A DNA stretch of 64,000 nt from Deltaproteobacteria bacterium (GTDB lineage: Bacteria; Desulfobacterota; DSM-4660; Desulfatiglandales; Desulfatiglandaceae), in contig JAIPDI010000005.1 of the NCBI GenBank assembly GCA_021737785.1, forward strand, positions 90,654-154,653, in the 5' to 3' direction. Within the stretch, counting starts at the first letter, position 1. Every line of letters starts with the position of its first letter. Below the pieces are notes generated by a model that made no database searches, was not told the DNA's origin, and saw only the letters and a list, made by a program, of their open reading frames with translations. Shown one piece after another: positions 26,595 through 44,317 of the stretch. The position numbers and the translations under genes were made by a program.

Positions 26595-28652
26595 ATGAGG
26601 TTTACGTTACGGCTGAAGATTCTTCTGATGGTTGGCATTATCACGCTCTCGTCCCTCCTGGGCTATATCGTGTTGACCTATAATGCCCGGGTGATCGGGA
26701 ACAGACTTCAGGTTGAAACCGAAGACCATATCAAGGCGATTGTGGGGAAAAATGCCGGGGAGATCGAATCCGCCATGCTCCTTATGGAGAGAACCGCGGA
26801 TGCCCTTGCCACTACAGGAGAGGCCTTTTATGCGATTCATAAGGCCACGGCACAGGATATCACGGAACAAATCAAGGGATACCTTATCAACACCTTCAAG
26901 AAGGTCCCGAAGGCGATCGGAGGCGGTCTCTGGTACGAACCCCATGCCCTGTTTGAAGAAAGAGAACGTTTCGGGGCCTATGTTTATCGGGAAAACGACC
27001 AGGTTTTCTTCACCTGGGATCTGAATACGGAGGCGTATGACTATCATCGACAGGCATGGTATCTCCTTGCCATCCCGGAGGACTGGAACCGGTCCCAGCA
27101 AAGACCTTCCAGGATTTACTGGACAGATCCCTATTTTGACGAGGCCGCAACCAAGGCCCTCATGATTACGGTGGATGCCCTGATGCATGACCTGGAGGGT
27201 AAAGTGATAGGGCTCTCTACGGTTGACTTCAGTCTGGAGGGATTGAAAGACATGGTGGCCAGGATGACCGTCACCCCCAATGCCTTGCCATTTGCCGTGG
27301 ACGTGTCCAGCGGTCTCCTCATCTCTTTTCCTTCTGATCCCTCCAAGGTCTTGAAGAATATCGCCGATCTCGGCTGGGGAGAAAAGATCGAGGAGATCAA
27401 GAACGTCCGTCCGGGAGAGGTGATCGCCACCCTGGCCACACTCCAAGGGAAGGAGTTTTTCCTGGTGTATACGGTCTCTTCCACCGGGACCGCCCTCGGC
27501 ATCCTGGCGCCCCATGACGAACTCTACGCCCATATCAACGAACTTAATCGGGCCAATATGGTCACGTCACTCATCATTATCTCGATCCAGGTGGTTCTTT
27601 ATCTGCTCATTGCATTCTTCATGGTGAGACGTATCTGCAATCCCATCAGCAGATTGACCGATGTGGCCCAGGAGATTGCAGCAGGCAATCTCGCCGGTGC
27701 GTCGGGGTCTCTGGCCGCAATCGAGGCCAAAAACCGATCAGACAAGGATGAAACCGGACAGCTGTTGGCCGCGTTCCAGGGAATGAATAGAGACCTCACC
27801 GCCCTTTTCGGACAGGTCCAGCGATCCGGAACCCAGGTCAGTTCATCCTCGGCACAGATCGCCGCCTCCTCAAAGCAGATGGAGGCCACTGTCAGCGAGC
27901 AGGCCGCGGCCACGCATCAGGTCAGCGTTTCCTCCAAGCAGATTTCCGCCACCGCAAGCACGCTGGCGAACACCGTCAATGAGGTGACAACGTCTGCGAC
28001 TGAGACGGCAGGTCTGGCCGAAGCGGGTCAGAAGGGCCTGGAAGGGATGGAACAATCGATGCAAGGCGTGCTCAAGGGATCTGAATCGGTTTCGGCAAAA
28101 CTGGAGGAAATCAAAGAAAACACATTAAATATCAGTACGATTGTATCTACCATGACAAGGGTCGCGGATCAGACCAACCTTCTCTCACTCAATGCGGCGA
28201 TCGAGGCTGAAAAGGCCGGGGAATACGGCCTTGGATTCTCTGTGGTGGCAAGGGAAATCCGCAGGTTGGCGGACCAGACCTCCGTAGCCGTGCTGGACAT
28301 CGAGGATATGGTCAAGAGGATGGAGGCATCCGTATCGGACGGGGCCGCTGAAATGGAAACCTTTTCCGAAGACGTGCGTGTCGCGGTCAGCGACATCAAC
28401 AAGATCGGAAGGCAATTGGATGGGATCATGGAAAGGGTCCGGTCTCTCCCCCCCCGTTTCGAATCGGTCAATGAAGGGATGGAAACCCAATCCCGGAGCG
28501 CAGGCCGAATCAGCGAGACCATGGAACAGTTGAACCTGACGGCCCAGCATACACTGAAGGCGCTGAGGGAATTCAATCTTTCGGCCGAGTACCTGAGGGA
28601 CGCGGCCCAGATCCTCCAAGATGCGGTTGCCCGCTTCAGGGTAACCGAATGA
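26595..28652 (+). CDS. Methyl-accepting chemotaxis protein, dCache type (WspA-like output)
   Basis: This 685-residue chemoreceptor has TM1 (about 7-28), a large periplasmic domain (about 35-320) with double-Cache motifs (RQAWYLLA, then IYWTDPYFDEA, then LSTVDFSLEGL), TM2 (about 323-345), a HAMP region and a long coiled-coil signalling domain. The hairpin tip reads ADQTNLLSLNAAIEAEKAGE, followed by REIRRLADQTSVAVLDIEDM. The EKAGE and LADQTxVAxLDIE wording is that of WspA-type receptors. There is no C-terminal NWETF-like pentapeptide, so adaptation enzymes are probably not tethered. It is the first gene of the cluster; the next receptor begins 20 bp later. Confidence 0.93.
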   Translation: MRFTLRLKILLMVGIITLSSLLGYIVLTYNARVIGNRLQVETEDHIKAIVGKNAGEIESAMLLMERTADALATTGEAFYAIHKATAQDITEQIKGYLINTFKKVPKAIGGGLWYEPHALFEERERFGAYVYRENDQVFFTWDLNTEAYDYHRQAWYLLAIPEDWNRSQQRPSRIYWTDPYFDEAATKALMITVDALMHDLEGKVIGLSTVDFSLEGLKDMVARMTVTPNALPFAVDVSSGLLISFPSDPSKVLKNIADLGWGEKIEEIKNVRPGEVIATLATLQGKEFFLVYTVSSTGTALGILAPHDELYAHINELNRANMVTSLIIISIQVVLYLLIAFFMVRRICNPISRLTDVAQEIAAGNLAGASGSLAAIEAKNRSDKDETGQLLAAFQGMNRDLTALFGQVQRSGTQVSSSSAQIAASSKQMEATVSEQAAATHQVSVSSKQISATASTLANTVNEVTTSATETAGLAEAGQKGLEGMEQSMQGVLKGSESVSAKLEEIKENTLNISTIVSTMTRVADQTNLLSLNAAIEAEKAGEYGLGFSVVAREIRRLADQTSVAVLDIEDMVKRMEASVSDGAAEMETFSEDVRVAVSDINKIGRQLDGIMERVRSLPPRFESVNEGMETQSRSAGRISETMEQLNLTAQHTLKALREFNLSAEYLRDAAQILQDAVARFRVTE

Positions 28653-28671
28653 CGTGTGGAAGGGAAACGAC

Positions 28672-30879
28672 ATGAGATTAATGCTCAGGCACAAGGTCAT
28701 CGGCCTCCCGGTCCTGGCGGCCATCCTGCCGGTCCTGGCCATGTTTGTTTTGACATTCATGGAAAAAAGCAGCGTCACACACAAAATCGAAGGGGAACTG
28801 GATCTTCTTGCACGTGACAGCATGAAAGGGATTGCGATAGCCATCAGGGATACCTGCCAGGTCACGAGCCATATGATACAGAAGGATGTGGACCGGCGCC
28901 TCGAGGATGGGGATTCCTTTTTTTCGGCCCTCGGAGGGCTCTCCTTGGGTTTTGAAGAGGTCTCATGGACCGCAGTGAATCAGTTTACGGGTGAAGAAAA
29001 AAAAGTGTCTCTTCCCAAAATGCTTATCGACGGGGTCACCTGGCTGGGACAAAATGAAAGATTGGATGAATCGACCCCTGTTATTGACGATGCCAAGATG
29101 AAATTCGGAGGAGACTATGCCATCTTTCAGCGGATGAATGAAAAGGGAGATATGATTCAGGTGGCAACCACCCTGCCCACTCAGGATGGGCATCGCGCCA
29201 CCGGAAGCTACATTCCCGCAACGACCCAGGGCATTTCGGTCCCCGTGGTTTCAACCGTGCTTCAGGGGAAGACATACAAGGGCCTGGCTGAAATAAACAA
29301 GCGGTGGTATGTCTCCGGTTTCAAGCCGATCAGCGATAAAACCGGGAAAATTATAGGGATGCTGTTTACAGGGATACCCGATAAGATCCCCGACAGCCTG
29401 CGACAGGTCATTTTGAACATGAAGGTGGGGAAGACGGGGTATGTATATGTCCTCGGCGGCCGATTCCCCCACCACAGGGGACATTATATCATTTCAAAGG
29501 ACGGCGAACGGGACGGCGAGAATATCTGGGATTCCAAAGACGCAAACGGCCGTTATTATATTCAGGATATCATAAATAAGGCGACGGCGCTGAAAGGAAA
29601 CGAGGTGGTATTTGAGCGGTATCCATGGCGGAACATCGGGGAGGACAAAGACAGATGGAAGGTTGTCGCCGTCACCTATTTTGAACCCTGGGACTGGGTA
29701 ATCGGGGCCGGCGCATACGAAGAGGATTATTATGATGCGAGGCAGAAGGTTGAAGCCTCCATGTCTCACATGCTGTGGGTGATGATCCTGAGCGGACTTG
29801 CCGTGCTTATTCCCATCGTCGGAATAGCCCTGTTTTTCGGGAACAGGATCACCAGACGCCTCATCCAGATCACGTCCATATCAAGGAAAATCGCCAAGGG
29901 GGATCTCTCGGCGGCCGCTGCCGCAGTCAGATCCCTGGCGGCTGCAGATGATCCTGACGGCAGGCGCAGGACTGACGATGAAACAGGACACCTCCTCAGT
30001 TCCATCAAGACGATGACGGAAAATCTCAATGCCCTGGTGGGGCAGGTCCAGCGTTCCGGGATTCAGGTCACCTCTTCTTCCACGCAACTGGCGGCGACGG
30101 CCAAGGAACAGGAGACCACCATGGCCAATCAGGTGGCATCCACCAATAAGGTGGTCAGGTCCATAAAAGAGATCTCCGAGGTTGCCGCCCGGTTGGTAGA
30201 GACCATGGAGCAGGTCGCCTCCAAGTCTCAGGATACTGCCGGTTTTGCGACCAAGGGTCAGACAGACCTGGCCCGCATGGAGGCGGCCATGCAGCATATG
30301 GAGACGGCCTCCAGGTCTATTTCAGGCCGATTGGAGACCATCAATGAAAAGGCGGAGAACATCACCAACGTGGTCACCACCATTACCAAGGTCGCGGATC
30401 AGACCAATCTCCTCTCCCTCAATGCGGCCATCGAAGCGGAAAAGGCCGGAGAGTATGGAAGGGGATTCAACGTGGTGGCCCGGGAGATACGGAGATTAGC
30501 GGATCAGACCGCGGTGGCCACCCTCGACATCGACAAGATGGTCCAGGAGATGCAATCGGCCGTATCCGCCGGCGTCATGGAGATGGACAAGTTCATCGCC
30601 GAAGTCAATCGCAGTGCGGAAGATGTGGGAAGGATCAGCGTCCAGTTGGCCCGGATCATCGAACAGGTCCAGGCCCTGTCTCCTGATTTCGAAAATGTCA
30701 ATGTGGCCATGGGAAGACAGTCTGAGAACGCCCAAAAGATCAATAGCTCCATAACGAGTCTAAGCGAAGAGATACAGATGGTGACCGAATCATTGCACGA
30801 GTCGTTTTCCGCTATTGAGCAACTGAATGATGCGGCCAGAGGGCTCCAAAACCAGGTATCGCGATTCAAGGTGAGCTGA
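28672..30879 (+). CDS. Methyl-accepting chemotaxis protein with Cache_3-Cache_2-type sensor
   Basis: The 735-residue receptor has TM1 (about 6-27), a periplasmic domain of about 330 residues, TM2 (about 358-382), HAMP and a WspA-type signalling domain. The periplasmic part has the features of fused Cache_3-Cache_2 sensors: CQVTSHMIQKDVDRRL, ATTLPTQDGHRATGSYIP, KRWYVSGFKPISDKTGKIIGM, then VGKTGYVYVLGG and WDWVIGAGAYEEDYYDA. The start at 28672 is preferred over the GTG at 28654 because GGAAGGGA is correctly spaced. From about 30040 onward its DNA is very similar to the third receptor. No pentapeptide tether is present. Confidence 0.92.
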   Translation: MRLMLRHKVIGLPVLAAILPVLAMFVLTFMEKSSVTHKIEGELDLLARDSMKGIAIAIRDTCQVTSHMIQKDVDRRLEDGDSFFSALGGLSLGFEEVSWTAVNQFTGEEKKVSLPKMLIDGVTWLGQNERLDESTPVIDDAKMKFGGDYAIFQRMNEKGDMIQVATTLPTQDGHRATGSYIPATTQGISVPVVSTVLQGKTYKGLAEINKRWYVSGFKPISDKTGKIIGMLFTGIPDKIPDSLRQVILNMKVGKTGYVYVLGGRFPHHRGHYIISKDGERDGENIWDSKDANGRYYIQDIINKATALKGNEVVFERYPWRNIGEDKDRWKVVAVTYFEPWDWVIGAGAYEEDYYDARQKVEASMSHMLWVMILSGLAVLIPIVGIALFFGNRITRRLIQITSISRKIAKGDLSAAAAAVRSLAAADDPDGRRRTDDETGHLLSSIKTMTENLNALVGQVQRSGIQVTSSSTQLAATAKEQETTMANQVASTNKVVRSIKEISEVAARLVETMEQVASKSQDTAGFATKGQTDLARMEAAMQHMETASRSISGRLETINEKAENITNVVTTITKVADQTNLLSLNAAIEAEKAGEYGRGFNVVAREIRRLADQTAVATLDIDKMVQEMQSAVSAGVMEMDKFIAEVNRSAEDVGRISVQLARIIEQVQALSPDFENVNVAMGRQSENAQKINSSITSLSEEIQMVTESLHESFSAIEQLNDAARGLQNQVSRFKVS

Positions 30880-30904
30880 GCCGGCACAGCCGGGACCCAA
30901 GATG

Positions 30905-30935
30905 TCTCACACAGAGCCACAGAGCCACAAAGAGA
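30905..30935. repeat. CACAGAGC octamer repeat, copy B
   Basis: TCTCACACAGAGCCACAGAG followed by CCACAAAGAGA lies between the second receptor and the first binding protein. It matches the block at 22554-22583 except for two A-to-G changes. Confidence 0.8.
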
Positions 30936-31032
30936 CAGAAAAATTTTGTGCTTTTTGCGACAGAAATCTAAGAGATAAGACCCTGACGCCTTTGGCTGGC
31001 GCCTGATGTCTTATGCCTTATCAGGAGGTCGA

Positions 31033-31848
31033 ATGTCGAACCTATGGTCAAGATTTCAGGTTTCTAATTTTTCAACATTCACTTTTTATTTTTCAATATT
31101 CAATATTCGATGGCTTGCATGCGGTGTTCTTGCCGCAGTCTGCTTCCTATCCGTTGATGTCGCGCCTTCCTGGTCCGACCGGAAAGAGCTGACAATGGCT
31201 GTCGGACTGGCCCTGCCCCCCTATAACATCCCGGAAACAGATTCGGGAATCGAGATGGATATCGTGCGCGAGGCGCTCAAGATCAAAGGCTATGCCGTGA
31301 AACCCAAATATGTGCCCTTTGCGCGAGTCAGAAGAGAGCTGATGAATCGCGACGTGGACGGCGCATTGACCATTAATCCGGATTCCGGCATCGAGGCCTT
31401 TTATTCGGATGGGCACCTGGTTTGTCAGAATATCGTTGTCACCCTGAAAAAAAACGGCTTCCGTGTGGATGAGATCGCCGACCTTAAGGACAAGAGCGTG
31501 CTTGCATTTCAAGACGCCACCCTCTATTTGGGGAAGGAATTCGCCGCCATGGCCGAGCAGAATGATCAATACAAGGAAATCGCCAAGCAGGAGATCCAGA
31601 TCAATCTCCTGTACACCAATCGGGTGGACGCCGTTGTCCTCGACAAAAATATCTTTTATCACCATCGGAACCACAATACCGTGGTGGATACGTCCCAGGA
31701 TATCGATATCTGGTATATTTTTCCACCCACCACCTTCAGCGTCGCCTTCATAGATGAAACGGTGAGGGACGATTTTAACGAGGGCCTGAAACAACTGCGG
31801 GCGACAGGCCGCTATGATGAGATCGTCAAGCAATATATAACCCCCTGA
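31033..31848 (+). CDS. Periplasmic solute-binding protein, SBP_bac_3 type
   Basis: This 271-residue exported protein belongs to the polar-amino-acid type of binding protein: LTMAVGLALPPYNIPETDSG, IEMDIVREALKIKGYAVKPKYVPFARV, ADLKDKSVLAFQDA, then a C-terminal TGRYDEIVKQY. The start at 31033 follows a strong AGGAGG. The signal region is unusually long and contains an AT-rich 7-8 bp repeat (coding FSTFTFYFSIFN) before the hydrophobic core (WLACGVLAAVCFLS). There is no ABC permease or ATPase nearby. Because it sits between chemoreceptor genes, it probably presents a ligand to a receptor, not an importer. That role is inference. Confidence 0.85.
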   Translation: MSNLWSRFQVSNFSTFTFYFSIFNIRWLACGVLAAVCFLSVDVAPSWSDRKELTMAVGLALPPYNIPETDSGIEMDIVREALKIKGYAVKPKYVPFARVRRELMNRDVDGALTINPDSGIEAFYSDGHLVCQNIVVTLKKNGFRVDEIADLKDKSVLAFQDATLYLGKEFAAMAEQNDQYKEIAKQEIQINLLYTNRVDAVVLDKNIFYHHRNHNTVVDTSQDIDIWYIFPPTTFSVAFIDETVRDDFNEGLKQLRATGRYDEIVKQYITP

Positions 31849-31880
31849 CTCGAAATTGAAATCCGGAATTCGACGGAGCG

Positions 31881-33539
31881 ATGGTCATGCGTGATTGGAG
31901 CATTATAACCAAGATAGTGGCGGCTGCCTGCGGCATCGTGTGCACCCTGGTGCTGCTGGGCGGATTTGTGCTGATCAAGTTCGAAATAAACATGGTGGGC
32001 ACCTTCACCAGGCAGATCCTGACGGAATTGAATGAGTTTATCGATATGCGGGCGACCCAGGAAAAGGACTCCCTCCACCAGAATGTCCGGTTCAATGCGG
32101 AGATCCTGAGCGGCGTCGGCGCCACCTATCTGTACAATCTCGATCAGGACGGCATGAAGCAGTCTTTGCGGCCCTTTATGAATTACCGGGAAATCGTCGC
32201 CATACAGGTCCTGGATGAAAAGGGAAAGCCTTTTGCCGCTGCCTGGAGAGCGCCCGGAATCAGCATAGGGGACGCGCTTCCCGGCGATCTGAAACTGAAC
32301 GAGGCCCTCTCGGTTTCCGTGGATTGCATGCACAATAAAAAGAAAATCGGAAGTTTTCATGTCTACTACACCGACGCCATATTGAAAGACCGGATTATCG
32401 CGCTGAAAACGAGTGCCTCCCGGGAGGCAGAGGCCTTTGAAAACGCCGCCCGGTCGGAACTCGACCGCGCCATTGTCAGCCAGACGATCGGCGTCTTTGT
32501 GATCCTTATGACCCTTGTGATTTCCTTAATCTTTTTTCTGAGGGCATTGGTCCTTAAGCCGTTGAAGGCGGTTTCCGAAGCGGCGCGTCAACTCTCCAAT
32601 TTCAACCTTGGGGTCCGCATCACCGCCACATCCAATGATGAGATCGGCAAACTCCTACGGGCCATCGACGGCATGGCCGATTCGTTTCGACAGGTTGTCG
32701 GCCAGGTCCAGCGGTCCGGGATCCAAGTCACCTCCTCTTCCACCGAATTGGCTGCCACGGCCAAGGAGCAGGAGACGACCATGGCCAACCAGGTGGCATC
32801 CACCAACCGGATGGTGACCTCGGTGGAACAGATTTCGGAAGTCGCCGAGCAGTTGGTGGTGACAGTGGAGCAGGTGGCCTCCATGTCCCAGGAGACGGCC
32901 GGTTTTGCCACCAAGGGCCAGACAGACCTGGCCCGCATGGAGGCGGCCATGCGCAATATGGAAACGGCCTCCAGGTCCATTTCGGGCCGGCTGGAGACCA
33001 TTAATGAAAAGGCGGAGAACATCACCAATGTGGTCACCACCATTACCAAGGTTGCGGATCAGACCAATCTCCTCTCCCTTAATGCGGCTATCGAGGCGGA
33101 GAAGGCCGGAGAATATGGAAGGGGATTCAACGTGGTGGCCCGGGAGATCCGCAGACTGGCCGACCAGACCGCCGTGGCCACCCTCGATATCGACCAGATG
33201 GTTCAGGAGATGCAGTCGGCCGTATCCGCGGGCGTCATGGAGATGGACAAATTCATTGCCGAGGTCAACCGCAGTGCCGAAGATGTGGGAAGGATCAGCG
33301 TCCAATTGGCCCGGATCATCGAACAGGTCCAGACCCTGTCCCCGAATTTCGAGAATGTCAACGTGGCCATGGGGCAGCAGTCGGAAAACGCCCAGAAGAT
33401 TAATCAATCCATGATCCATTTAAGTGAAGAGATGCAGGAAACCATGGATTCCCTGCGTGAGACCTATGCCGCCATTGAACAATTGAATGAGGCGGCAAGG
33501 GGCCTGCAGGACGAGGTGTCCAAGTTCAAGGTGAGCTGA
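31881..33539 (+). CDS. Methyl-accepting chemotaxis protein with small periplasmic sensor
   Basis: The 552-residue receptor has TM1 (about 8-30), a short periplasmic domain (about 31-190; GATYLYNLDQDGMKQSLRPF, REIVAIQVLDEKGKPFAAAW), TM2 (about 195-215), HAMP and a WspA-type signalling domain with LSLNAAIEAEKAGEYGRGF and LADQTAVATLDIDQM. The cytoplasmic part is nearly the same as in the second receptor at both DNA and protein level. It begins 32 bp after the first binding protein. Its sensor is too small for two Cache units, so it may be the receptor that reads a binding protein. Confidence 0.92.
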   Translation: MVMRDWSIITKIVAAACGIVCTLVLLGGFVLIKFEINMVGTFTRQILTELNEFIDMRATQEKDSLHQNVRFNAEILSGVGATYLYNLDQDGMKQSLRPFMNYREIVAIQVLDEKGKPFAAAWRAPGISIGDALPGDLKLNEALSVSVDCMHNKKKIGSFHVYYTDAILKDRIIALKTSASREAEAFENAARSELDRAIVSQTIGVFVILMTLVISLIFFLRALVLKPLKAVSEAARQLSNFNLGVRITATSNDEIGKLLRAIDGMADSFRQVVGQVQRSGIQVTSSSTELAATAKEQETTMANQVASTNRMVTSVEQISEVAEQLVVTVEQVASMSQETAGFATKGQTDLARMEAAMRNMETASRSISGRLETINEKAENITNVVTTITKVADQTNLLSLNAAIEAEKAGEYGRGFNVVAREIRRLADQTAVATLDIDQMVQEMQSAVSAGVMEMDKFIAEVNRSAEDVGRISVQLARIIEQVQTLSPNFENVNVAMGQQSENAQKINQSMIHLSEEMQETMDSLRETYAAIEQLNEAARGLQDEVSKFKVS

Positions 33540-33655
33540 CAGGGGTTTTGGCTGATGGCTGATAAGCTCATAAGCGGGTCAGCGGCGCTGGGCCCAATCC
33601 CGCTTTTCAGCATGCGGATAAAGAACCTTGGGCCTTGCGCCTCATGAGGTTGACC
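33540..33655. repeat. GGCTGAT heptamers and a truncated TCCCGC hairpin
   Basis: GGCTGATGGCTGATAAGCTC starts about 10 bases after the receptor stop codon. TCCCGCTTTTCAGC at 33598-33611 is the left part of an 18-bp hairpin found complete at 34482-34499 and 50858-50875; the right arm is missing here. GAGGT at 33646-33650 serves the next gene. Confidence 0.75.
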
Positions 33656-34375
33656 ATGATTCGATGGGGGTTGATCATACTATGCCTTTTGGGGGGAGCT
33701 GCGGCCAGTTCCGCTGAAACCATCACCCTCGGCGCTGAGAATGACTGGGTTCCTTATGCCAACCAGGACGGCACCGGGATGTCGAATGAGATTGTCCGTG
33801 CGGCGTATAAGGCGGTGGGGATCGCGGTTGTATTCCAGGTGGGACCCTATAATCGTCTGCTGCAGGATGTCCGGGACGGCGCCATATTGGGGGCCTTCAA
33901 TGTGCCCAGGGAGCGCTCGAATGAGGATCTCTATCTTTTCGGGAAGACGCCCCTTTTCACTGCCTTGTCGGCCTATTATCACAACCGCGACAACCCGCTT
34001 TCAGCCACCCGAAAGGAAGAACTGGTAAACGGAGAAACCGTGGGCGTTGTCTTCGATTACGGGTATGGGGACTTTTTTACCAACAATGACCGGATCGCCA
34101 AGGTTGAAGTGAGATCGGACCTGCTGAATCTTCGGAAGCTGGCCAAAGGCCGGCTTGACGCCACCATCCTGTATGACAAGACCGCGAGAAAACTCATCGA
34201 GGACAACGGGCTTGGCGACAAGATTGTAAAGGCCTTTGACAGCGAAAGCGCCGACATCTACGTCGCCTTCTCCAAGGTCTTCCCAAGGGCTCGGTATTAC
34301 GCCGATAAGTTGGATGAGGGTCTCGCCATTATCAAGGGCAACGGCGAGTATCAGAAGATACTGGAGGCGTACTGA
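33656..34375 (+). CDS. Periplasmic solute-binding protein, SBP_bac_3 type (second copy)
   Basis: The 239-residue exported protein has a signal peptide (MIRWGLIILCLLGGAAASSA) and the fold signatures of family 3 binding proteins: ITLGAENDWVPYANQDGTGM, SNEIVRAAYKAVGI, NGETVGVVFDYGYGDFF, and IKGNGEYQKILEAY at the end. The start at 33656 is chosen for the GAGGT six bases upstream; ATG 33644 and TTG 33635 are in frame. It has only modest similarity to the first binding protein. It lies between a chemoreceptor and the cheW gene and has no transporter partner, so a sensory role is likely. Confidence 0.85.
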   Translation: MIRWGLIILCLLGGAAASSAETITLGAENDWVPYANQDGTGMSNEIVRAAYKAVGIAVVFQVGPYNRLLQDVRDGAILGAFNVPRERSNEDLYLFGKTPLFTALSAYYHNRDNPLSATRKEELVNGETVGVVFDYGYGDFFTNNDRIAKVEVRSDLLNLRKLAKGRLDATILYDKTARKLIEDNGLGDKIVKAFDSESADIYVAFSKVFPRARYYADKLDEGLAIIKGNGEYQKILEAY

Positions 34376-34608
34376 AGGTTTGTTGAGTTCGTTGGGTTAC
34401 TTGAGGTTATTGGGTTGGGTGGGGTGCCGGATACTGCTGACAGCTCATGGCTGATGGCTGATGAGCGGATATGGGGCTCAATCCCGCTTTTCAGCGGGAC
34501 TTAACAGCTCAACAGCTTAACAGCCTGATCCCGCTTTCAGCTTTGAGCTTTGAGCCTTAGGTCTTGCGTCTCAATCGTCAACCGCCAATTATTAATCCTG
34601 AGGGGGCC
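34376..34608. repeat. Composite repeat region before the first cheW
   Basis: Several short arrays follow one another. TTGRG-type nonamers occupy 34376-34425, and GGCTGAT units 34448-34464. The perfect hairpin TCCCGC-TTTTCA-GCGGGA is at 34482-34499. CAACAGCT octamers (about 34503-34525) are followed by CTGATCCCGCTTTCA and CTTTGAG heptamers (34540-34555). The block AACAGCCTGATCCCGCTTTC recurs at 41569. The hairpin has no T-run, so it is not an intrinsic terminator. GAGGGGG precedes the cheW ATG. Confidence 0.75.
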
Positions 34609-35082
34609 ATGCTGGTACTTATTTTCTATCTGGGGGACACCATGTATACGATGACGTGTGACAGGGTGAGAGAGGTGGCCCCCATGGTAAAGCTCAAGGA
34701 GGTACCCCATACCCCGGATTATTTTGCAGGGCTCTTCAATTACCGGGGGGTGGTTGTCCCTGTCATCGACTTGAGGCAATTGATACAGGGGTGTCCGTGC
34801 CAGATGCGCCTCAGCACCCGGATCATCCTTGTGGATTATTTAAAGGAAGATAAAACCCCCTACATCATGGGACTCATGGCGGAACGGGTCACCGATGCGG
34901 TCAGAAAATCCCGGGATGCATTCGTATCCCCCGGGCTTAGCTTGCAGGAGGCCCCCTATCTAGGGGGGTTTGTCATGGAAGATAAGGAAATGATTCAATA
35001 CATCGATCTGGACCTTCTCCCGGAAACATTCCGGTTTCTCCCCCTGCTGGAAGGCGGCCATGGAATCCCTGGCAATGATTGA
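34609..35082 (+). CDS. CheW-like coupling protein (WspB position)
   Basis: This 157-residue single-domain CheW protein (LVLIFYLGDTMYTMTCDRVREV, FAGLFNYRGVVVPVIDLRQL, IILVDYL) joins chemoreceptors to the CheA kinase. The start at 34609 has GAGGGGG upstream; the longer in-frame start at 34564 would translate repeat sequence. Its 3' end overlaps the cheR start by 23 bp. Its place before cheR-TPR matches wspB in Pseudomonas. Confidence 0.9.
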   Translation: MLVLIFYLGDTMYTMTCDRVREVAPMVKLKEVPHTPDYFAGLFNYRGVVVPVIDLRQLIQGCPCQMRLSTRIILVDYLKEDKTPYIMGLMAERVTDAVRKSRDAFVSPGLSLQEAPYLGGFVMEDKEMIQYIDLDLLPETFRFLPLLEGGHGIPGND

Positions 35083-36352: not shown

Positions 36353-36363
36353 AGGTAGGATCA

Positions 36364-37035
36364 ATGGAAAAACAACAGGAAGAGAGATGCTGGAAACGGA
36401 TAGGCGTATGGGCCAAAGAGGGTCCCCGCTGCCCCGAACTTGCACGGGTCATCCACTGCCGCAACTGCGAGGTATTCACGCAGGCGGGCAGAAATCTCCT
36501 GGAACGGGAGCTTCCGGATGAATACAAGGAGGAATGGGGTCAGGTCCTGCTGGAAAAAAAGAATGATGAGCCGACCGGGATCTTCCCGGTGGTGACATTC
36601 CGGATTGAAACAGAATGGCTGGCGCTTCCCGCCCGGTTTTTTGCAGAAATCATGGATACGGTCCCCATCCACACCGTCCCCCACCGGAAAAGGCCGGTCT
36701 TGAAGGGGGTGGTGAATGTGCACGGCGAGATCCAGTTATGCATCTCCCTGGGGCATCTGATCGGCCTGGAGGCGGAATCCCCGGAAGGGGAAAAAGCGGT
36801 AAGGCGCCATGAACGGATGATGGTGGTCAGCAAGGACGACGATGTGTGGGTATTTCCGGTGAAGGAAATCCATGGCATTCACCATATTCATCCCGGCCTG
36901 TACCAGAATGTTCCGGCAACCGTAGCCAAGTCCAAGTCGTCATTTACCAAAAAGATCTTCAAATGGGAAGACAAGCATGTGGCCCTGTTGGATGACGAAC
37001 TCCTGTTTTACAGTCTCAAGAGGAGCGTCCAGTGA
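36364..37035 (+). CDS. CheW-like coupling protein with Cys-rich N-terminus (WspD-like)
   Basis: The 223-residue protein has an N-terminal segment with four cysteines (CWKRIGVW, RCPELARVIHCRNCEVF) before the CheW domain (about 75-220; FRIETEWLALPARFFAEIMD, GVVNVHGEIQLCISLG). This Cys-rich leader is a known feature of WspD proteins. The start at 36364 is 11 bp after the cheR stop and follows AGGTAGGA; an in-frame TTG at 36349 is rejected. The stop overlaps the GTG of cheA. The leader may bind a metal or respond to redox, which is not established. Confidence 0.9.
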   Translation: MEKQQEERCWKRIGVWAKEGPRCPELARVIHCRNCEVFTQAGRNLLERELPDEYKEEWGQVLLEKKNDEPTGIFPVVTFRIETEWLALPARFFAEIMDTVPIHTVPHRKRPVLKGVVNVHGEIQLCISLGHLIGLEAESPEGEKAVRRHERMMVVSKDDDVWVFPVKEIHGIHHIHPGLYQNVPATVAKSKSSFTKKIFKWEDKHVALLDDELLFYSLKRSVQ

Positions 37036-40000
37036 CGGATAATAACTGCCGCACCCCTGACGATCCTTCCATTATGGATCTCTTTCGTACGGAAGTGGAA
37101 CAGCATTCCGCGACCATCAGCGATGGGCTGTCGGCCCTTGGGAAGAACCCGGCCGCCGCTGCCGACCGGATGGATGCCATGATCCGGGCCGCCCATGCCG
37201 TGAAGGGGGGGGCGCAGATCGTGGATCTGGATGGGGCAAAAAAGATATCCCGTGCCATGGAGGCATCTTTTCTCGCCGTCCAGAAAGGGGAGTTCTCCCT
37301 GGGAAGCGACAGCATCGACATCCTTCTCGAAGGCGTAGACATGCTCAATCAGATTGCCAGTTCGGCCGATGACCCCGAATGGCTGACCCGGCACGAGGAA
37401 GAGATCAGGCGCTTGGCCGCGGCCATGAACCGGATCCCTCCAGAGGACGCGGGTCCGGAGATCCCGCCCGCCCCCCCCTCCGGGTCGGAGGCAGTAGGCC
37501 CGCGCACTGAAATGGCGGCAACACCGCCGGAAAAAGAACCCTCTCCTGCGCAGACCTCGGCCATGGCTGATCCGGCCATGTTGGATCTCTTCCGAACGGA
37601 GGTGCAGGACCACATCGCGACATTGAACGACGGACTCCTCTCTTTACAGGACGATCCTGATGCTGTCGATGCACTCGACCCGCTGATGCGGGCCGTCCAC
37701 TCCATCAAGGGCGCTGCCCGCATTGTGGGCTTTGATGCCGCAGCAGACGTCTCCCATGCCATGGAGGACTATTTTTCGGCCGTTCGAAAAGGTGAGGCGT
37801 CCTTAGGCCAGGATCGGATTACCATCCTCTTAAAGGGTGTGGACATCCTCAACCGGATCATCGCGTCCGAGACCGGATCCGAATCCATGGATGGGGCTCA
37901 GGAGGACGTCGAAGGGATGATAGCGGGCATCCGGGGAACCCTGGCCGAAGAGACGGCAGCCCCCTCAGGCGGTACCCCTTCCACCATTTCTATGGATGCT
38001 TCTGCAGCTGAAAAGGAGCCGGCAGGGGGGGAGGCACAGATCGAAGCGGTCGATCCCGTCATGCTGGATCTCTTTCAGACAGAGGTGGAAGCCCATGTGG
38101 CGGTCCTAAACGATGGACTCCTGGCGCTGGAAAGCAATCCGGGGGCCACCGATCAGCTGGAGGCGTTGATGCGGGCGGCCCACTCCATCAAGGGCGGTGC
38201 CCGGGTCCTGGGCCTGGATGTTGCGGTCCGGGCGGCCCATGTGATGGAGGACTGTTTTGTGGCGGCCCAGAAGGGAGAGGTCTCCTTAGGCTCCGATCAG
38301 ATCGACATCCTGCTCCGGATTGTGGATATCCTGACCCAGCTTGCGCATTCTCTCAGTGCAGGAGAAACCGACTGGCTGAGCCACCACCGTGAGGAGATCG
38401 ACCGTCTGGTGGGTGCCATATCGGCGATTATCGACGGGGAAATGGCCATTCCGGTCTCTCCCATTGAAACCGCGGCCTCAAAGGAGGCCACCCCGCCGGC
38501 CAGACGCCCGCCGGAACCGGTCCCGGCCCATTCGAAAACCGACGTGGGCCTGCCGACGCCTCAAAAGACTGATGAGACCCTGCCTCAACCGCATGTCGCG
38601 GACAAGGACCGTACGGTGCGCGTTACGGCCGCAAAGATCGAGCGCCTCATGGGGCAGGCCGGAGAGGTCGTGGTGAATGCCCGCTGGCTTCCGGCCTTTT
38701 CAGAGGCCCTTCTGGAACTCAAGAGGAATCATGGGGAACTGCTTGCAATCCTGGATGGAATACAGGAGGTCCTTGTTCAAAAGGGGAGCAGTCCGGAGAC
38801 ATCGGATCTGTTGCTCCAGGCCAGAAATAAAACCAAGGAATGCAACCGAAAGGTGGGCGAACGGCTGAATCAGTTCGACATATTCAACAGTACCTCAGCG
38901 GCCCTTTCCGACCGGCTCTATCACGAGGTCATTTCGGTGAGGATGCGTCCCTTTTCAGACGGGGTTCAGGGGTTTCCGAGGATGGTACGGGATGTTGCCC
39001 GTGAACTGGGCAAGAAAGTCCGGCTAGAGATCAAGGGGAAATCCACCGAAGTGGACCGGGATATCCTGGAGAAGCTGGACGCCCCCCTCAACCATCTCCT
39101 TCGCAACTCCCTGGATCACGGGATCGAACCCCCTGAGGACCGCGTTCGTGCCGGGAAGCCCGAGGTCGGTTCTCTGCGCCTGGAGGCCGCTCACCGTTCA
39201 GGCATGCTCATGATTACCCTGTCGGATGACGGCCGCGGCATCGATCTGGACGGATTGCGCCGGAAGATCGTGGAAAAAGGACTGGCCGGCGGGGATATGG
39301 TCGAAAAGATGACCGAGGCGGAACTCATGGATTTTCTCTTCCTTCCGGGATTTTCTACGGCACAGAACGTGACTGAAATCTCGGGTCGGGGAGTGGGCCT
39401 CGATGTGGTTCGGAATATGGTGCATGAGGTGGGCGGCGTGGTCCGCGCCGTATCCAGGCCCGGCGAGGGGTTGACCCTCCATATGGAGCTTCCCCTCACC
39501 CTCTCCGTTGTCCGGACCTTTCTGGTGGAAATCGCCGGGGAGCCTTATGCCTTTCCCATCGCCAGGATCGAGAGGTGTCTTGAACTCCCGAGGGGAGAGA
39601 TCAGCACGGTCGAGGACCGCCAGTATTTCAGGTTTGACGACAACAATATCGCCCTGGTGGACATCCATAATGTTCTGGAACTGGATGCCCCCCCCGGACT
39701 TCAGGACGACCTCTCCGTGGTGGTGGTGAGCGATAGATTGAACTTCTACGGTCTTTCAGTGGACCGTTTCCTGGGGGAATACGACCTTGTGGTCAGGCCT
39801 TTGGATCCGCGGTTGGGAAAGGTTCCTGACATCAGCTCGGTCGCCGTGATGCTGGATGGCTCGCCGGTGCTCATCTTTGATGTGGAAGACCTGGTCCGAT
39901 CCATCGACAATCTCCTGGCGGGTCGCAGACTCCGTAAACTGAGCCGTGAGGCGGCCAGGGAGACGACCCAGCAGAAAAAGCGGATTTTAGTGGTTGACGA

Positions 40001-40346
40001 TTCCTTCACGGTCCGGGAGATGGAACGTAAACTCCTTGAAAGCAGAGGATATGCTGTGGAAACCGCGGTGGACGGGGTGGACGGCTGGAATGCCGTGCGT
40101 ACCGGTCATTACGACATGGTCGTATCGGATGTGGACATGCCGAGGATGAACGGAATTGAATTCGTAAGACAAATCAAACAGCACCCTGAGCTCAAACCCC
40201 TCCCTGTTATCATTGTTTCCTACAAGGACAAGGAAGAGGACCGGATCCTGGGGCTGGAGGCGGGCGCCAACTACTATCTCACCAAGAGCAGTTTTGAGGA
40301 TGATTCTCTCATTCATGCGGCGGTTGACCTTATTGGGGAGGCGTGA
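37032..40346 (+). CDS. Hybrid CheA kinase with three HPt domains and a receiver (WspE-like)
   Basis: The 1104-residue kinase has three HPt domains, with phospho-acceptor histidines at His55 (AAHAVKGG), His223 (AVHSIKGAAR) and His384 (AAHSIKGGAR), separated by Pro/Glu-rich linkers. A dimerisation and HATPase region follows (LNHLLRNSLDHGIE, LSDDGRGIDLDGLR, GRGVGLDVV), then a CheW-like domain (TFLVEIAGEPYAFPI) and a C-terminal receiver (LVVDDSFTVREMERKLL, Asp1033 in SDVDMP). It takes receptor signals and phosphorylates CheB and the two downstream receivers. The start is a GTG overlapping the cheW stop. The HPt triplication with conserved active residues is unusual for a Wsp-like system. Confidence 0.95.
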   Translation: MTDNNCRTPDDPSIMDLFRTEVEQHSATISDGLSALGKNPAAAADRMDAMIRAAHAVKGGAQIVDLDGAKKISRAMEASFLAVQKGEFSLGSDSIDILLEGVDMLNQIASSADDPEWLTRHEEEIRRLAAAMNRIPPEDAGPEIPPAPPSGSEAVGPRTEMAATPPEKEPSPAQTSAMADPAMLDLFRTEVQDHIATLNDGLLSLQDDPDAVDALDPLMRAVHSIKGAARIVGFDAAADVSHAMEDYFSAVRKGEASLGQDRITILLKGVDILNRIIASETGSESMDGAQEDVEGMIAGIRGTLAEETAAPSGGTPSTISMDASAAEKEPAGGEAQIEAVDPVMLDLFQTEVEAHVAVLNDGLLALESNPGATDQLEALMRAAHSIKGGARVLGLDVAVRAAHVMEDCFVAAQKGEVSLGSDQIDILLRIVDILTQLAHSLSAGETDWLSHHREEIDRLVGAISAIIDGEMAIPVSPIETAASKEATPPARRPPEPVPAHSKTDVGLPTPQKTDETLPQPHVADKDRTVRVTAAKIERLMGQAGEVVVNARWLPAFSEALLELKRNHGELLAILDGIQEVLVQKGSSPETSDLLLQARNKTKECNRKVGERLNQFDIFNSTSAALSDRLYHEVISVRMRPFSDGVQGFPRMVRDVARELGKKVRLEIKGKSTEVDRDILEKLDAPLNHLLRNSLDHGIEPPEDRVRAGKPEVGSLRLEAAHRSGMLMITLSDDGRGIDLDGLRRKIVEKGLAGGDMVEKMTEAELMDFLFLPGFSTAQNVTEISGRGVGLDVVRNMVHEVGGVVRAVSRPGEGLTLHMELPLTLSVVRTFLVEIAGEPYAFPIARIERCLELPRGEISTVEDRQYFRFDDNNIALVDIHNVLELDAPPGLQDDLSVVVVSDRLNFYGLSVDRFLGEYDLVVRPLDPRLGKVPDISSVAVMLDGSPVLIFDVEDLVRSIDNLLAGRRLRKLSREAARETTQQKKRILVVDDSFTVREMERKLLESRGYAVETAVDGVDGWNAVRTGHYDMVVSDVDMPRMNGIEFVRQIKQHPELKPLPVIIVSYKDKEEDRILGLEAGANYYLTKSSFEDDSLIHAAVDLIGEA

Positions 40347-40348
40347 TC

Positions 40349-41395
40349 GTGCGGATTGCCATTGTCAATGATCTGGCCGCGGTGGTGGAATTCCTGCGAC
40401 AGATTGTCTCCGAGGTCCCCGGATATGAGGTGGCCTGGGTCGCCCGGGATGGGGCCGAGGCGGTCAAAAAATGTTCGGCAGATATCCCGGACCTGATCCT
40501 CATGGACCTGATCATGCCGGGCATGGACGGGGTGGAGGCCACCCGTCGGATAATGGCCGAATTCCCCTGTCCCATTTTGATCGTGACGCCCACCATGGAG
40601 AGAAATACCCCTAAGATCTTTGAGGCGATGGGCCATGGGGCCCTGGATGCCATCAGCACCCCGGTCAGCGGAAACGAGGCGGCCGCACAACAGAGCCGGG
40701 AGGCCTTGCTCAAGCGGATTGAGAGCATCGGGAGGCTCAACGGCCCTTCCACCTTGTCTCCTCTGGGCCGCACACGGGGAAGCCTGACACGGAACCTCCC
40801 CCCGCTGGTGGTTATCGGTGCTTCCACGGGCGGTCCCAAGGCGCTGGCAACCGTGCTTTCCGGACTCCCCGGAGACCTGCGGGCCGGTATTATCATTGTT
40901 CAGCACGTCGGCGGGGAATTTTCAAAGGGGCTGGCGGGTTGGCTGAGCAGCCAGACCCTCCTGAATGTGCGCCTCGCCGCAAAGGGTGCCCGACCCTCCC
41001 TGTCAACGGTCTTTCTGGCAGGCAGCAACGATCATCTGATTCTTTCCCCGGACCTCACCCTGACCTATACCCGGGAACCGAGCAATATCCCGTTTCGTCC
41101 TTCAGTGGATGTGTTTTTCAAGAGTGTTTTAGAAAACTGGCCGTTGAAGGGGGTTGCCGTTCTCCTGACCGGCATGGGACGGGACGGGGCGGAAGGGCTG
41201 GCCGCCCTTCGAGGGGCAGGCTGGTACACCATTGCCCAGGACGAGGCCACCAGCGTGGTGTACGGGATGCCCAAGGCGGCCAGGGACTTGGGGGCAGCCG
41301 CGGATATCCTTCCCATTGACGATGTGGCCCCGGCCATCCTGCGGCATCTTCGCAAGGGAAGGGGAGGGATGAAGGGGATGAGCTGGGAGTGGTGA
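40349..41395 (+). CDS. cheB: CheB receptor methylesterase (WspF-like)
   Basis: The 348-residue protein has a receiver domain (MRIAIVNDLAAVVEFLRQIV; Asp53 in LMDLIMPGMDG) and a methylesterase domain with the catalytic Ser159 in VVIGASTGGPKAL, His in IVQHVGGEFSKGL and Asp in LLTGMGRDGAEGL. It demethylates the receptors when phosphorylated. The GTG at 40349 is chosen over the GTG at 40343 because GGGGAGG is spaced seven bases from it and MRIAIVND is the family N-terminus. Loss of its relative WspF locks the Pseudomonas Wsp system on. A GCTGGAT array begins right after the stop. Confidence 0.95.
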   Translation: MRIAIVNDLAAVVEFLRQIVSEVPGYEVAWVARDGAEAVKKCSADIPDLILMDLIMPGMDGVEATRRIMAEFPCPILIVTPTMERNTPKIFEAMGHGALDAISTPVSGNEAAAQQSREALLKRIESIGRLNGPSTLSPLGRTRGSLTRNLPPLVVIGASTGGPKALATVLSGLPGDLRAGIIIVQHVGGEFSKGLAGWLSSQTLLNVRLAAKGARPSLSTVFLAGSNDHLILSPDLTLTYTREPSNIPFRPSVDVFFKSVLENWPLKGVAVLLTGMGRDGAEGLAALRGAGWYTIAQDEATSVVYGMPKAARDLGAAADILPIDDVAPAILRHLRKGRGGMKGMSWEW

Positions 41396-41624
41396 GCTGG
41401 TGCTGGATGCTGGATGCTGGATACTCGATACTGGATACTGGATGGTGGAGGAGGGATGAATCGAGGGAAGGATATCTGATAAGCCCATAAGGTTGTATGC
41501 TGGTGGCTGATAGCCGGTGGTGCAGTTCACGCGCTCACCCGCTTAACAGCTCAACAGCTCAACAGCTCAACAGCCTGATCCCGCTTTCAACTTTAGTTCA
41601 CTTTAGGCACTTTAGGCACTTCCT
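41396..41624. repeat. Tandem repeats between cheB and the cyclase gene
   Basis: A perfect heptamer array (GCTGGAT three times, then ACTCGAT, ACTGGAT, ACTGGAT) lies at 41405-41446, directly after the cheB stop. CAACAGCT octamers (about 41544-41576) lead into CCTGATCCCGCTTTCA, shared with 34524-34539, and CACTTTAGG nonamers occupy 41600-41622. No gene and no clear terminator is present. A strong ribosome binding site for the cyclase gene is not visible. Confidence 0.8.
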
Positions 41625-43106
41625 ATGACTGACGATAGAACCGACCAGCCCGTTTCCCTGACCCAGCACCGGATTACCGTCCTTTTGGTGGACGACCAGG
41701 CCATTATCGGCGAGGCGCTTCGCCGCATGCTGGCCCCGGAACAGGATATCGATTTCCATTTCTGCCAGGATCCGACAAAGGCCATCAAGGTGGCCAACCG
41801 GATCCACCCCACGGTTATTCTTCAGGACCTGGTCATGCCGGAGATAGACGGGTTGACCCTGGTCCGTTACTACCGGGCCAACCCTTCCACCCGGGATGTG
41901 CCGTTGATCGTCCTGTCCAGCAAGGAAGAGGCCGTGACCAAAGCCGAGGCCTTTGCCCGCGGGGCCAACGACTATCTGGTCAAACTGCCCGACCGGCTGG
42001 AGATCATCGCCCGAATCCGATATCACTCAAAAGGGTATATCAATTTGCTGCAGAGAAATGAGGCCCAGGCCCAGTTGGAAAAGGCCAACCGGATCATCCG
42101 CAAGACCTTTGGTCAGTACCTCTCAGACGATATCGTGGATGCCATTCTGGAGACCCCGGAGGGTGCGGCCCTTGGCGGGGAAAAACGGTTTGTCACCATT
42201 ATGATGACCGATCTTCGCGGGTTTACCGCAATCGGCGAGCGGCTTCCGGCCGAGGATGTGGTGGGCATCATCAATATCTATCTCGAGACCATGACAGAGA
42301 TCATCCTCAAGTACCAGGGGACCATCGATGAATTTATCGGCGACGCCATCTTTGTCATCTTTGGGGCACCTGTTCTTCGGGAAAACGATGCCAAGAGGGC
42401 CGTGGCATGCGCCGTGGAGATGCAGCTGGCCATGGAAGCGGTCAATCGCCGGTGCAGAGAGCGCGGGTATCCGGAGGTGCAGCAGGGGATCGGGATCAAC
42501 TCCGGCCAGATCGTGGTGGGCAATATCGGATCCAAGAAACGGATGAAATACGGCGTGGTGGGCCGGAACGTCAACCTCACGTCACGCATCGAATCCTACA
42601 CGGTCGGCGGTCAGATCTTCATCTCGGAAAATACCCTGGATGAATGCGGTCGTCACCTCCTGAGAATCGACGACGAGATGGAGGTCATGCCCAAGGGGGT
42701 CAAGAAGCCAATTACCATTTACGAGGTGGGCGGGATCAGGGGGGAGTTCGATCTGTTCCTTCCGGAGAAGGTGGAAATGGACCTGCCGGAACTGCCAAGG
42801 CCGTTTCCTGTCCTGTTTACCATTTTGGAAGGGAAGCACGCCGGCAACGAAGCGCGTTCCGGAACGGTGGTCCGAATGCTGGGCACCGCGGCCGAGATTT
42901 CGGCGGATGTAACACCGGACAAACTGACGAACCTCAAGATCTCTGTTTCAGATATGGAAGGAAATGAGATCACCACCGATCTGTACGCCAAGGTTATCGG
43001 AGCGGTCTCGAACCACCCCGGCACTTTCAAGGTGCAATTTACCTCTATTCCCCTCGAAGTGGATGGGTTTTTGAAGACGGTCGCGGCACAGGAGCGGACA
43101 TCATGA
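41625..43106 (+). CDS. WspR-type receiver fused to a class III nucleotide cyclase
   Basis: The 493-residue protein has a receiver (about 15-140; LLVDDQAIIGEALRRML, Asp68 in ILQDLVMP, VLSSKEEAVTKAEAF, GANDYLVKLPDR) with the wording of the WspR receiver. A coiled linker leads to a class III cyclase domain (about 185-365): metal Asp in MMTDLRGFTAIGERL, second metal Asp in EFIGDAIFVIFG, then YGVVGRNVNLTSRIES. The position that is Asp or Thr in adenylate cyclases is Gly here (YGVVG), so ATP versus GTP preference is open. The last 100 residues form a strand-rich domain resembling PilZ without its c-di-GMP motifs. It replaces the GGDEF output of WspR and overlaps the next gene by ATGA. Confidence 0.92.
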   Translation: MTDDRTDQPVSLTQHRITVLLVDDQAIIGEALRRMLAPEQDIDFHFCQDPTKAIKVANRIHPTVILQDLVMPEIDGLTLVRYYRANPSTRDVPLIVLSSKEEAVTKAEAFARGANDYLVKLPDRLEIIARIRYHSKGYINLLQRNEAQAQLEKANRIIRKTFGQYLSDDIVDAILETPEGAALGGEKRFVTIMMTDLRGFTAIGERLPAEDVVGIINIYLETMTEIILKYQGTIDEFIGDAIFVIFGAPVLRENDAKRAVACAVEMQLAMEAVNRRCRERGYPEVQQGIGINSGQIVVGNIGSKKRMKYGVVGRNVNLTSRIESYTVGGQIFISENTLDECGRHLLRIDDEMEVMPKGVKKPITIYEVGGIRGEFDLFLPEKVEMDLPELPRPFPVLFTILEGKHAGNEARSGTVVRMLGTAAEISADVTPDKLTNLKISVSDMEGNEITTDLYAKVIGAVSNHPGTFKVQFTSIPLEVDGFLKTVAAQERTS

Positions 43107-44317
43107 ATTTCCCGGATCACGGCGCATCCGACCAAGCCACACAGCTTACCCAGCACGGCATTCAGGTGCTCCTTATCGATGACCAGGCCATTATCGCCGA
43201 GGCGGTCCGCCGGATGTTGCACCAGGAACCGGACATCCGGTTTCATTACTGCCAGGACCCTGCCCAGGCCATCCAGACGGCCTGTGACATCCATCCCACC
43301 GTGATCCTGCTGGATCTCATCATGCCGGAGATTGACGGGCTCACCCTGGCCAAGTTTTTGCGTGCCAATAAATTGACCCGAGAAATCCCCCTGATCGTCC
43401 TTTCCTCCAAAGAGGAGGCCGTTACAAAGGCGGAGGCCTTTGCCGCAGGGGCCAATGACTACCTGGTCAAACTTCCGGACAAAATCGAACTGATTGCCCG
43501 GATCCGTTACCATTCAAACGCCTACATCATGCGGCTTCAACGCAATGAGGCCTATGAGGCCCTCGTCGCCAGCCAGAAGGCCCTCACCAACGAACTGAGC
43601 CAGGCGTCGGAGTATGTCCGATCTCTCCTTCCCCATCAGCTTACCGGGGATATCCGCACAGACTGGGAGTTCATCCCGTCCACCTCCCTGGGGGGCGATT
43701 CCTTCGGGTATCACTGGATTGATGACGACCATTTTGCCATCTACCTTCTGGACGTGTGCGGGCATGGCGTGGGCGCAGCCCTCCTCTCCATATCGGCCCT
43801 CAATACATTGCGATCGGAATCCCTCAATTACGTCGATTTCCGGGATCCCTCGCAGGTACTGGAAGGTCTGAATGAGGTCTATCAGATGGAGGCGCACCAT
43901 GAGATGTTTTTTACCATCTGGTACGGCGTATTCAACAGGGAGCGCCGCGATCTGATCTTTGCCAGCGGCGGTCATCCCCCGGCCATTGCCCGAACAGGGA
44001 TGTCTTCCCAAACCGCAGAAACCGTGGCCCTGAACCTGGGCGGATTGATTATCGGCGGACTGCCCGGGCAGAAATACCAGAAATCGACCCTCGTGCTCGA
44101 ACCCTATGCCAGACTGTATATCTACAGCGACGGGATTTACGAGGTTTCCAGGCCTGAGGGCGGCATGGTTCAACTCAATGATTTCATTGAGCTGGTGGGG
44201 AATCTGTCCAGGGAGGGAGACGGCTCGCCCAAGACCATCATCAACGCCATGCGACGCATTCAGAACAAAGAGATGTTTGAGGACGATGTGTCTCTGCTGG
44301 AGGTCGAGTTCCTCTGA
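43103..44317 (+). CDS. WspR-type receiver fused to a PP2C/SpoIIE phosphatase
   Basis: The 404-residue protein shares its receiver (Asp71 in LLDLIMP; VLSSKEEAVTKAEAF; GANDYLVKLPDK) with the upstream cyclase protein, so the two genes arose from one receiver. The C-terminal part (about 170-404) is a PP2C-like SpoIIE/RsbU phosphatase with the expected acidic metal ligands: GGDSFGYHWID, LLDVCGHGVGAALLS, IYSDGIYE and FEDDVSLLEVEF. Such phosphatases normally dephosphorylate an anti-sigma-factor antagonist. No antagonist (STAS) or anti-sigma kinase gene is in the window. The ATG overlaps the cyclase stop. Confidence 0.93.
   Translation: MNFPDHGASDQATQLTQHGIQVLLIDDQAIIAEAVRRMLHQEPDIRFHYCQDPAQAIQTACDIHPTVILLDLIMPEIDGLTLAKFLRANKLTREIPLIVLSSKEEAVTKAEAFAAGANDYLVKLPDKIELIARIRYHSNAYIMRLQRNEAYEALVASQKALTNELSQASEYVRSLLPHQLTGDIRTDWEFIPSTSLGGDSFGYHWIDDDHFAIYLLDVCGHGVGAALLSISALNTLRSESLNYVDFRDPSQVLEGLNEVYQMEAHHEMFFTIWYGVFNRERRDLIFASGGHPPAIARTGMSSQTAETVALNLGGLIIGGLPGQKYQKSTLVLEPYARLYIYSDGIYEVSRPEGGMVQLNDFIELVGNLSREGDGSPKTIINAMRRIQNKEMFEDDVSLLEVEFL

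Follow-up and report, generated by a model that had tools for sequence, protein, structure and literature searches.

A Wsp-type chemosensory cluster with receiver-cyclase and receiver-SpoIIE outputs in a bacterium of the Desulfatiglandaceae

The DNA analysed here (the window, 64,000 nucleotides) corresponds to positions 90,654 to 154,653 of contig JAIPDI010000005.1 (assembly GCA_021737785.1), from a deltaproteobacterium of the Desulfatiglandaceae. Positions 26595-44317 of the window carry a Wsp-type chemosensory cluster on the + strand, with genes for three receptors and two solute-binding proteins, followed by CheW, CheR-TPR, a second CheW, CheA, CheB and two output proteins, a receiver-cyclase and a receiver-SpoIIE phosphatase (Table 1). 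An earlier reading made from the letters and open reading frames (ORFs) of the window (the sequence-only reading) had recognised the order of wspA to wspF with coupled gene overlaps. The order was borne out by the ORFs, by their Pfam domains and by comparison with the Wsp operon of Pseudomonas aeruginosa PA7 (locus L112). Overlaps were present at five junctions, with 23 bases at CheW/CheR and 4 bases at CheR/second CheW, second CheW/CheA, CheA/CheB and cyclase/SpoIIE; CheB and the cyclase gene are separated by a gap of 229 bases, at 41396-41624.

Table 1. Genes of the Wsp-type cluster, with positions in the window
Feature	Position	Strand	Basis
Receptor 1: PDC/dCache sensor, HAMP, MCP signalling domain	26595..28652	+	Pfam; hairpin alignment
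Receptor 2: Cache_3-Cache_2 sensor, MCP signalling domain	28654..30879	+	Pfam; hairpin alignment
SBP_bac_3 solute-binding protein 1	31006..31848	+	Pfam; counterparts in relatives
Receptor 3: HAMP, MCP signalling domain, sensor part without Pfam name	31881..33539	+	Pfam; hairpin alignment
SBP_bac_3 solute-binding protein 2	33635..34375	+	Pfam; counterparts in relatives
First CheW (WspB position)	34564..35082	+	Pfam
CheR methyltransferase with TPR (WspC position)	35060..36352	+	Pfam
Second CheW with four-Cys leader (WspD position)	36349..37035	+	Pfam; leader counts
CheA: three Hpt, kinase core, CheW domain, C-terminal receiver (WspE position)	37032..40346	+	Pfam; tree
CheB methylesterase with receiver (WspF position)	40343..41395	+	Pfam; residue check
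Output 1: WspR-type receiver, heptad stalk, Cya2-like class III cyclase, PilZ-like C-terminal domain	41625..43106	+	Pfam, structure search, alignment
Output 2: WspR-type receiver, heptad stalk, SpoIIE-type PP2C phosphatase with Asp motifs	43103..44317	+	Pfam, residue check

Pfam domains confirmed that the two receivers are joined to a class III cyclase and a SpoIIE-type phosphatase in place of GGDEF, and the WspR wording quoted in the sequence-only reading is present in both output proteins. Key residues are present in the receivers of both outputs (acid pocket, phospho-Asp, Ser, Lys), in the cyclase (metal Asps) and in the phosphatase (Asp motifs). The cluster shares with Wsp, a surface-sensing system of Pseudomonas, the gene order, the CheR-TPR, the CheA with C-terminal receiver, the CheB, and the output receiver with its stalk. 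The signalling hairpins of all three receptors were aligned without gaps, over about 280 columns, to the receptor of the PA7 Wsp operon, and the second CheW of both the window and PA7 carries a Cys leader. Among annotated loci from many phyla, 49 of 52 second CheWs have this leader, against 0 of 47 first CheWs. The cluster differs from Pseudomonas Wsp in the absence of a GGDEF output, which usually makes cyclic di-GMP there, and in the presence of two outputs, three receptors, two solute-binding proteins and a CheA with three Hpt domains, each of which has a His. The cluster is called Wsp-type here, and not a WspR or WspH system, because the GGDEF output is missing.

In the WspH systems of Burkholderia, a Wsp cluster is associated with a non-GGDEF output, a hybrid histidine kinase encoded by a single gene 5' of the operon, whereas the outputs in the window are a cyclase and a phosphatase encoded 3' of CheB; the same 2021 study describes WspR or WspH as exclusive in beta- and gammaproteobacteria (PMC8552884). 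No WspR-type receiver with SpoIIE or class III cyclase, and no Wsp cluster with a double output, was found described in the open-licence literature surveyed (largely titles and abstracts).

The assignment of the receivers was made by comparison with solved structures. The receiver of the cyclase protein scored 196 and 190 bits against the two solved WspR chains and 61 bits against PleD, the next receiver; the receiver of the SpoIIE protein scored 182 and 181 bits, and 71 bits against PleD. No solved receiver other than WspR exceeded 71 bits with either. The two receivers are 74% identical to each other and 68% and 63% identical to PA7 WspR.

A hidden receiver-GGDEF partner for the CheA was searched for in the genome of the window (5.33 Mb, 96 contigs, estimated 100% complete), which has eight GGDEF matches, and was rejected. 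With WspR as query, the window receivers were recovered at 197 and 181 bits, and lone receivers reached no more than 55 bits. Two receiver-GGDEF genes (on contigs C18 and C78) scored 143 and 135 bits with the whole protein; their receivers alone are ordinary, scoring higher with the receiver of the window CheA (47 and 50 bits) than with that of WspR (35 and 30 bits). No WspR-type receiver beyond the two of the window was found in this genome. The origin of the two receivers as a fresh tandem copy was also rejected: in a receiver tree (136 columns, weak support, containing the relatives of the window and not its own rows), the SpoIIE receivers of this lineage fall with SpoIIE receivers from elsewhere, and its cyclase receivers likewise with other cyclase receivers. 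The mutual identity of the window receivers, above that of either to PA7 WspR, counts against this rejection.

The cluster may also be taken as just another ACF-class cluster with multidomain response regulators, of the kind surveyed in 2012, to which the Wsp label would add little. It is the closest description in the literature surveyed: among the partners that it reports for receivers in CheR-TPR clusters are phosphatases of family 2C and mononucleotidyl cyclases (PMC3447774). This description is compatible with the reading preferred here, but it is doubtful that it suffices, since the receivers are WspR-type by more than 100 bits and Wsp operons share both its receptor hairpin and its Cys leader. 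In addition, the available portion of the survey contains no pairing of two outputs in one cluster, no tie to WspR-type receivers and no analysis of stalks (PMC3447774).

Conservation of the outputs was examined in 61 genomes, including that of the window (G000). The cyclase protein was matched at E 1e-60 in 22 of the 61, and in 10 of these the match was full-length with at least 76% identity. The receiver-SpoIIE gene comes after the cyclase gene in 8 of the 10; in one of the other two (G032) the contig ends, and in the other (G031) the SpoIIE ORF lacks a receiver (positions 9330-9995 of L036, a deletion or an assembly fault). CheA is in the locus in 8 of the 10; G003 shows CheB at a contig end, and the contig of G002 is 5.3 kb long. 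In G001 (L041), where the cyclase protein is full-length with 52% identity, no Che genes were found within 9.8 kb.

For the wider survey, the neighbours of WspR-type receivers were mapped in the best 80 of more than 595 pattern matches in named genomes, chosen by likeness to the cyclase protein. Because L042 duplicates the record of the G025 locus, it entered neither counts nor trees, and L051-L056 were left outside the counts for lack of a WspR-type receiver above 120 bits. The resulting 76 receivers comprised 39 with SpoIIE, 17 with GGDEF, 9 with FGRY-type cyclase, 6 with NILP-type cyclase, 2 with another cyclase and 3 others, the last including L060, in which receiver and cyclase are two adjoining ORFs. 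CheA was present in the same locus for 53 of the 76 (SpoIIE 30/39, GGDEF 16/17, FGRY-type cyclase 2/9, NILP-type 2/6, other cyclase 2/2, other 1/3); 15 further receivers stood in loci cut by contig ends, and 8 had no CheA despite at least 7 kb on both sides. The arrangement is not unique, because WspR-type receivers joined to SpoIIE or a cyclase occur commonly next to Wsp-type clusters. In two loci of gammaproteobacteria (L076 and L087), the Wsp cluster ends in receiver-GGDEF and is accompanied by a divergent gene for a WspR-type receiver-SpoIIE protein, and double outputs are therefore found in two separate kinase clades. WspR-type receivers were also seen with class III cyclases carrying a Lys/Asp pair in cyanobacteria and planctomycetes (L058, L059, L064, L071, L078, L085, L099, L115); these cyclases are predicted to be adenylyl cyclases.

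Kinase and output co-segregate across loci. In a tree of 58 CheA cores, taken from loci with WspR-type receivers plus the window and containing no outgroup class, 14 of the 15 kinases with a cyclase output (from this lineage and cyanobacteria) fell into one starred clade, and the kinases with a GGDEF output formed a separate clade (support 93, not starred). The output labels required 10 changes on the CheA tree, compared with 28.4 in shuffles, and 10 changes on the receiver tree, compared with 41.9; in neither case was a value as low reached in 200 shuffles. Common descent contributes to these figures for both trees. The double-output kinases of this lineage have three Hpt domains, except that of L038, which has two. 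A relation between the number of Hpt domains and the number of outputs was rejected: L076 and L087 have one Hpt each, and the single-output L073 has five.

The receiver and its stalk behave as a cassette. Median receiver identity is 62-69% whether receivers of the same output class (GGDEF, SpoIIE or cyclase) or of different classes are compared, and stalk length, measured from the last-helix motif of the receiver to the enzyme motif, falls into one class modulo 7 for each enzyme. All 99 distinct receiver-cyclase stalks conform (78 of 33, 20 of 40 and 1 of 26 residues), as do all 142 receiver-SpoIIE stalks (135 of 43 and 7 of 36), all 6 NILP-type stalks (5 of 42 and 1 of 35) and all 12 GGDEF stalks (43 each). 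The count missed 10 of 147 cyclase sequences (8 of other cyclase subtypes, the receiver-less fragment P0059, and P0071, of odd architecture) and 1 of 168 SpoIIE sequences (P0212, a fragment). Few independent length events are represented, because the trees require at least 4 changes for the cyclase and 3 for SpoIIE. Only the nearest homologues in the database (120 and 120) were sampled, so these counts, and those of cyclase residues given below, lean towards close relatives. A change by whole heptads is what a parallel coiled coil requires. Residues 140-171 of WspR are predicted to form a coiled coil (PMC2270323), coiling of the linker activates RsbU (PMC12143880), and the FGRY transducer motif of cyclases stands at a set heptad place, from which an engineered Cya2 fusion departs (PMC5995499).

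The cyclase domain of output 1 is closest to the guanylyl cyclase Cya2. Its product is predicted to be cyclic GMP (cGMP), because Cya2 is its nearest relative and the Glu/Gly specificity pair of Cya2 is present (E236 and G310); the catalytic residues D196, D240, N317 and R321 are present as well. The Cya2 of Synechocystis has a CHASE2 sensor and a membrane segment (PMC5995499), whereas the window cyclase is preceded by a WspR-type receiver, is followed by a PilZ-like domain and has Ser320 in place of a Tyr that is reported to favour GTP turnover (PMC4215837). Production of cyclic AMP (cAMP) instead, which would make this a cAMP and partner-switch system with a product nearer to the Pil-Chp/CyaB route, would fit the loss of this Tyr (retained in 1 of 147 relatives), the rank of P. 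aeruginosa CyaB as third best solved cyclase and the names of homologues, most of which, where named, are called adenylate cyclase (database names only). It is nevertheless unlikely in view of the Glu/Gly pair: a Lys at the place of the Glu turns Cya2 into an adenylyl cyclase (PMC5995499), and this adenylyl-type Lys was found in only 8 relatives, all of other cyclase subtypes.

The C-terminal domain of the cyclase protein (42753-43103) has no name in Pfam, and the matches listed in fold searches with the whole protein were receivers and cyclases; when the domain was modelled separately, its own structure model gave a predicted PilZ-like fold. The motifs of PilZ receptors for cyclic di-GMP are RxxxR and [D/N]xSxxG. 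The two were present together in 0 of 25 aligned PilZ-like domains (for the cyclase protein, alignment A1 contained 30 of the 120 listed homologues). The same domain stands behind Cya2-like cyclases in Leptospiraceae records without a WspR-type receiver (L052, L053, L055).

The SpoIIE domain of output 2 is the only one in its genome. Five STAS matches were found there, among them a single stand-alone gene (contig C11), which adjoins a gene for an RsbW-like kinase. Of the 61 genomes, 31 have a STAS match and 30 have none; a strong SpoIIE match (above 100 bits) was present in 30 of the former and 8 of the latter (Fisher p 5e-9, uncorrected for relatedness). STAS and RsbW genes are adjacent in 10 of 10 loci (the window genome and nine relatives). 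Five genomes (G000, G011, G013, G025, G036) have no SpoIIE match besides the receiver-SpoIIE protein, and the STAS-RsbW pair is retained in each. The simplest reading of these sequences is that the Wsp-type phosphatase likely serves, or took over, the pair.

For partner switching, one comparison is the RsbK-RsbY relay found in Bacillus cereus; RsbY combines a receiver with a PP2C domain. The window protein resembles RsbU and RssB in its N-terminal regulatory domain, helical linker and PP2C phosphatase (PMC12143880), with STAS and RsbW-like genes in the genome. Unlike RsbU/RssB and RsbK-RsbY, it has a Wsp-type CheA array as its input, and neither a sigma factor nor another final target came to light, no search aimed at these having been made.

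Among the receptor genes, SBP_bac_3 counterparts occupy the same places in relatives, and no ABC transporter gene was found beside the SBP_bac_3 genes among the 15 proteins scanned; these solute-binding proteins may be dedicated sensing proteins. The sequence-only reading had passed over them, together with the three Hpt domains and the PilZ-like fold. Its statement that CheY, CheZ, CheD and flagellar genes are absent held for the same 15 proteins, none of which had a Pfam match naming a lone CheY or any of the others (smaller and overlapping ORFs were outside the scan). With NCBIfam, no match above cut-off was listed for the six proteins scanned (best 25 rows each). The four-Cys leader of the second CheW, with the pattern CW..G..C..C..C at 36349-36600, is a possible metal or redox site. 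A gene for an RCC1-repeat protein (44358-45914) lies directly 3' of the cluster.

The earlier observation is thus confirmed and its interpretation supported: the locus is a Wsp-type cluster in which the GGDEF output is replaced by two receiver-stalk genes, and one CheA would likely switch on both. We infer the phosphotransfer, the nucleotide product and the target from sequence, and would expect the system to work as follows. A ligand, perhaps carried by a solute-binding protein, would act on the receptors; CheA would autophosphorylate on its Hpt domains and pass phosphate to CheB and the two output receivers, and CheB together with CheR-TPR would reset the receptors. Once phosphorylated, the receivers would be expected to form pairs, the coiled-coil stalk joining two cyclase or two phosphatase domains into the active form. 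The cyclase would raise cGMP. The substrate of the phosphatase would be the one stand-alone STAS protein, whose dephosphorylation would change the partner held by the RsbW-like kinase.

Several observations, in addition to Ser320 of the cyclase, weigh against this interpretation. The gap 5' of the cyclase gene could give room for a separate promoter, and three receiver-cyclase loci (L044, L046, L048) are among those without CheA despite at least 7 kb on both sides. Two other CheA-like kinases are encoded in the genome (236 and 134 bits, against 958 for the window CheA core). In the CheA tree, one SpoIIE kinase (L063) lies inside the cyclase clade, and the kinase of L060, with a cyclase output and a long branch, lies outside it. 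For the phosphatase branch, a second, weaker, short HATPase_c_2 match is present on contig C61 (35.8 bits). The STAS-RsbW pair is not exclusive to the Wsp-type phosphatase, because in 3 of the 10 loci (L126, L127, L128) the pair has a SpoIIE neighbour of its own, of 641-668 residues and Cache-HAMP-SpoIIE architecture (sensor and HAMP part judged by eye); the window genome keeps STAS and RsbW only. Control of the two outputs by different kinases, with CheA driving one and another histidine or CheA-like kinase the other, would accommodate the gap, the CheA-free loci and the further kinases, but is quite improbable given that both receivers are WspR-type and closely alike, that 8 of 10 full-length relatives have the output pair behind the cluster, and that single outputs of either type also adjoin Wsp-type CheA elsewhere.

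In a broader view, Wsp would be a general sensory chassis with a plug-in output, in which a receiver-stalk cassette in heptad register has been coupled across phyla to GGDEF, to SpoIIE and to cyclases of Glu type (cGMP) or Lys-Asp type (cAMP). Here, one kinase array would feed two cassettes, so that the same stimulus would be expressed in parallel by cGMP and by a partner switch; we regard this broader view as reasonably probable. It has been proposed that coiled-coil linkers allow receivers to be exchanged among phosphatases, diguanylate cyclases and kinases (PMC12143880). The cluster is a natural case of such exchange, here extended to class III cyclases, with the receiver nearly constant, the enzyme swapped and the stalk changed only by heptads. 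Few proteins would be needed to test the phosphatase branch, because this phosphatase and the stand-alone STAS gene are each the only one of their kind in the genome. The cluster and its relatives show that a Wsp-type array can have outputs of other kinds and can have two of them together, and, if the cyclase makes cGMP, it would add a kinase-controlled route to a bacterial messenger that is seldom studied.

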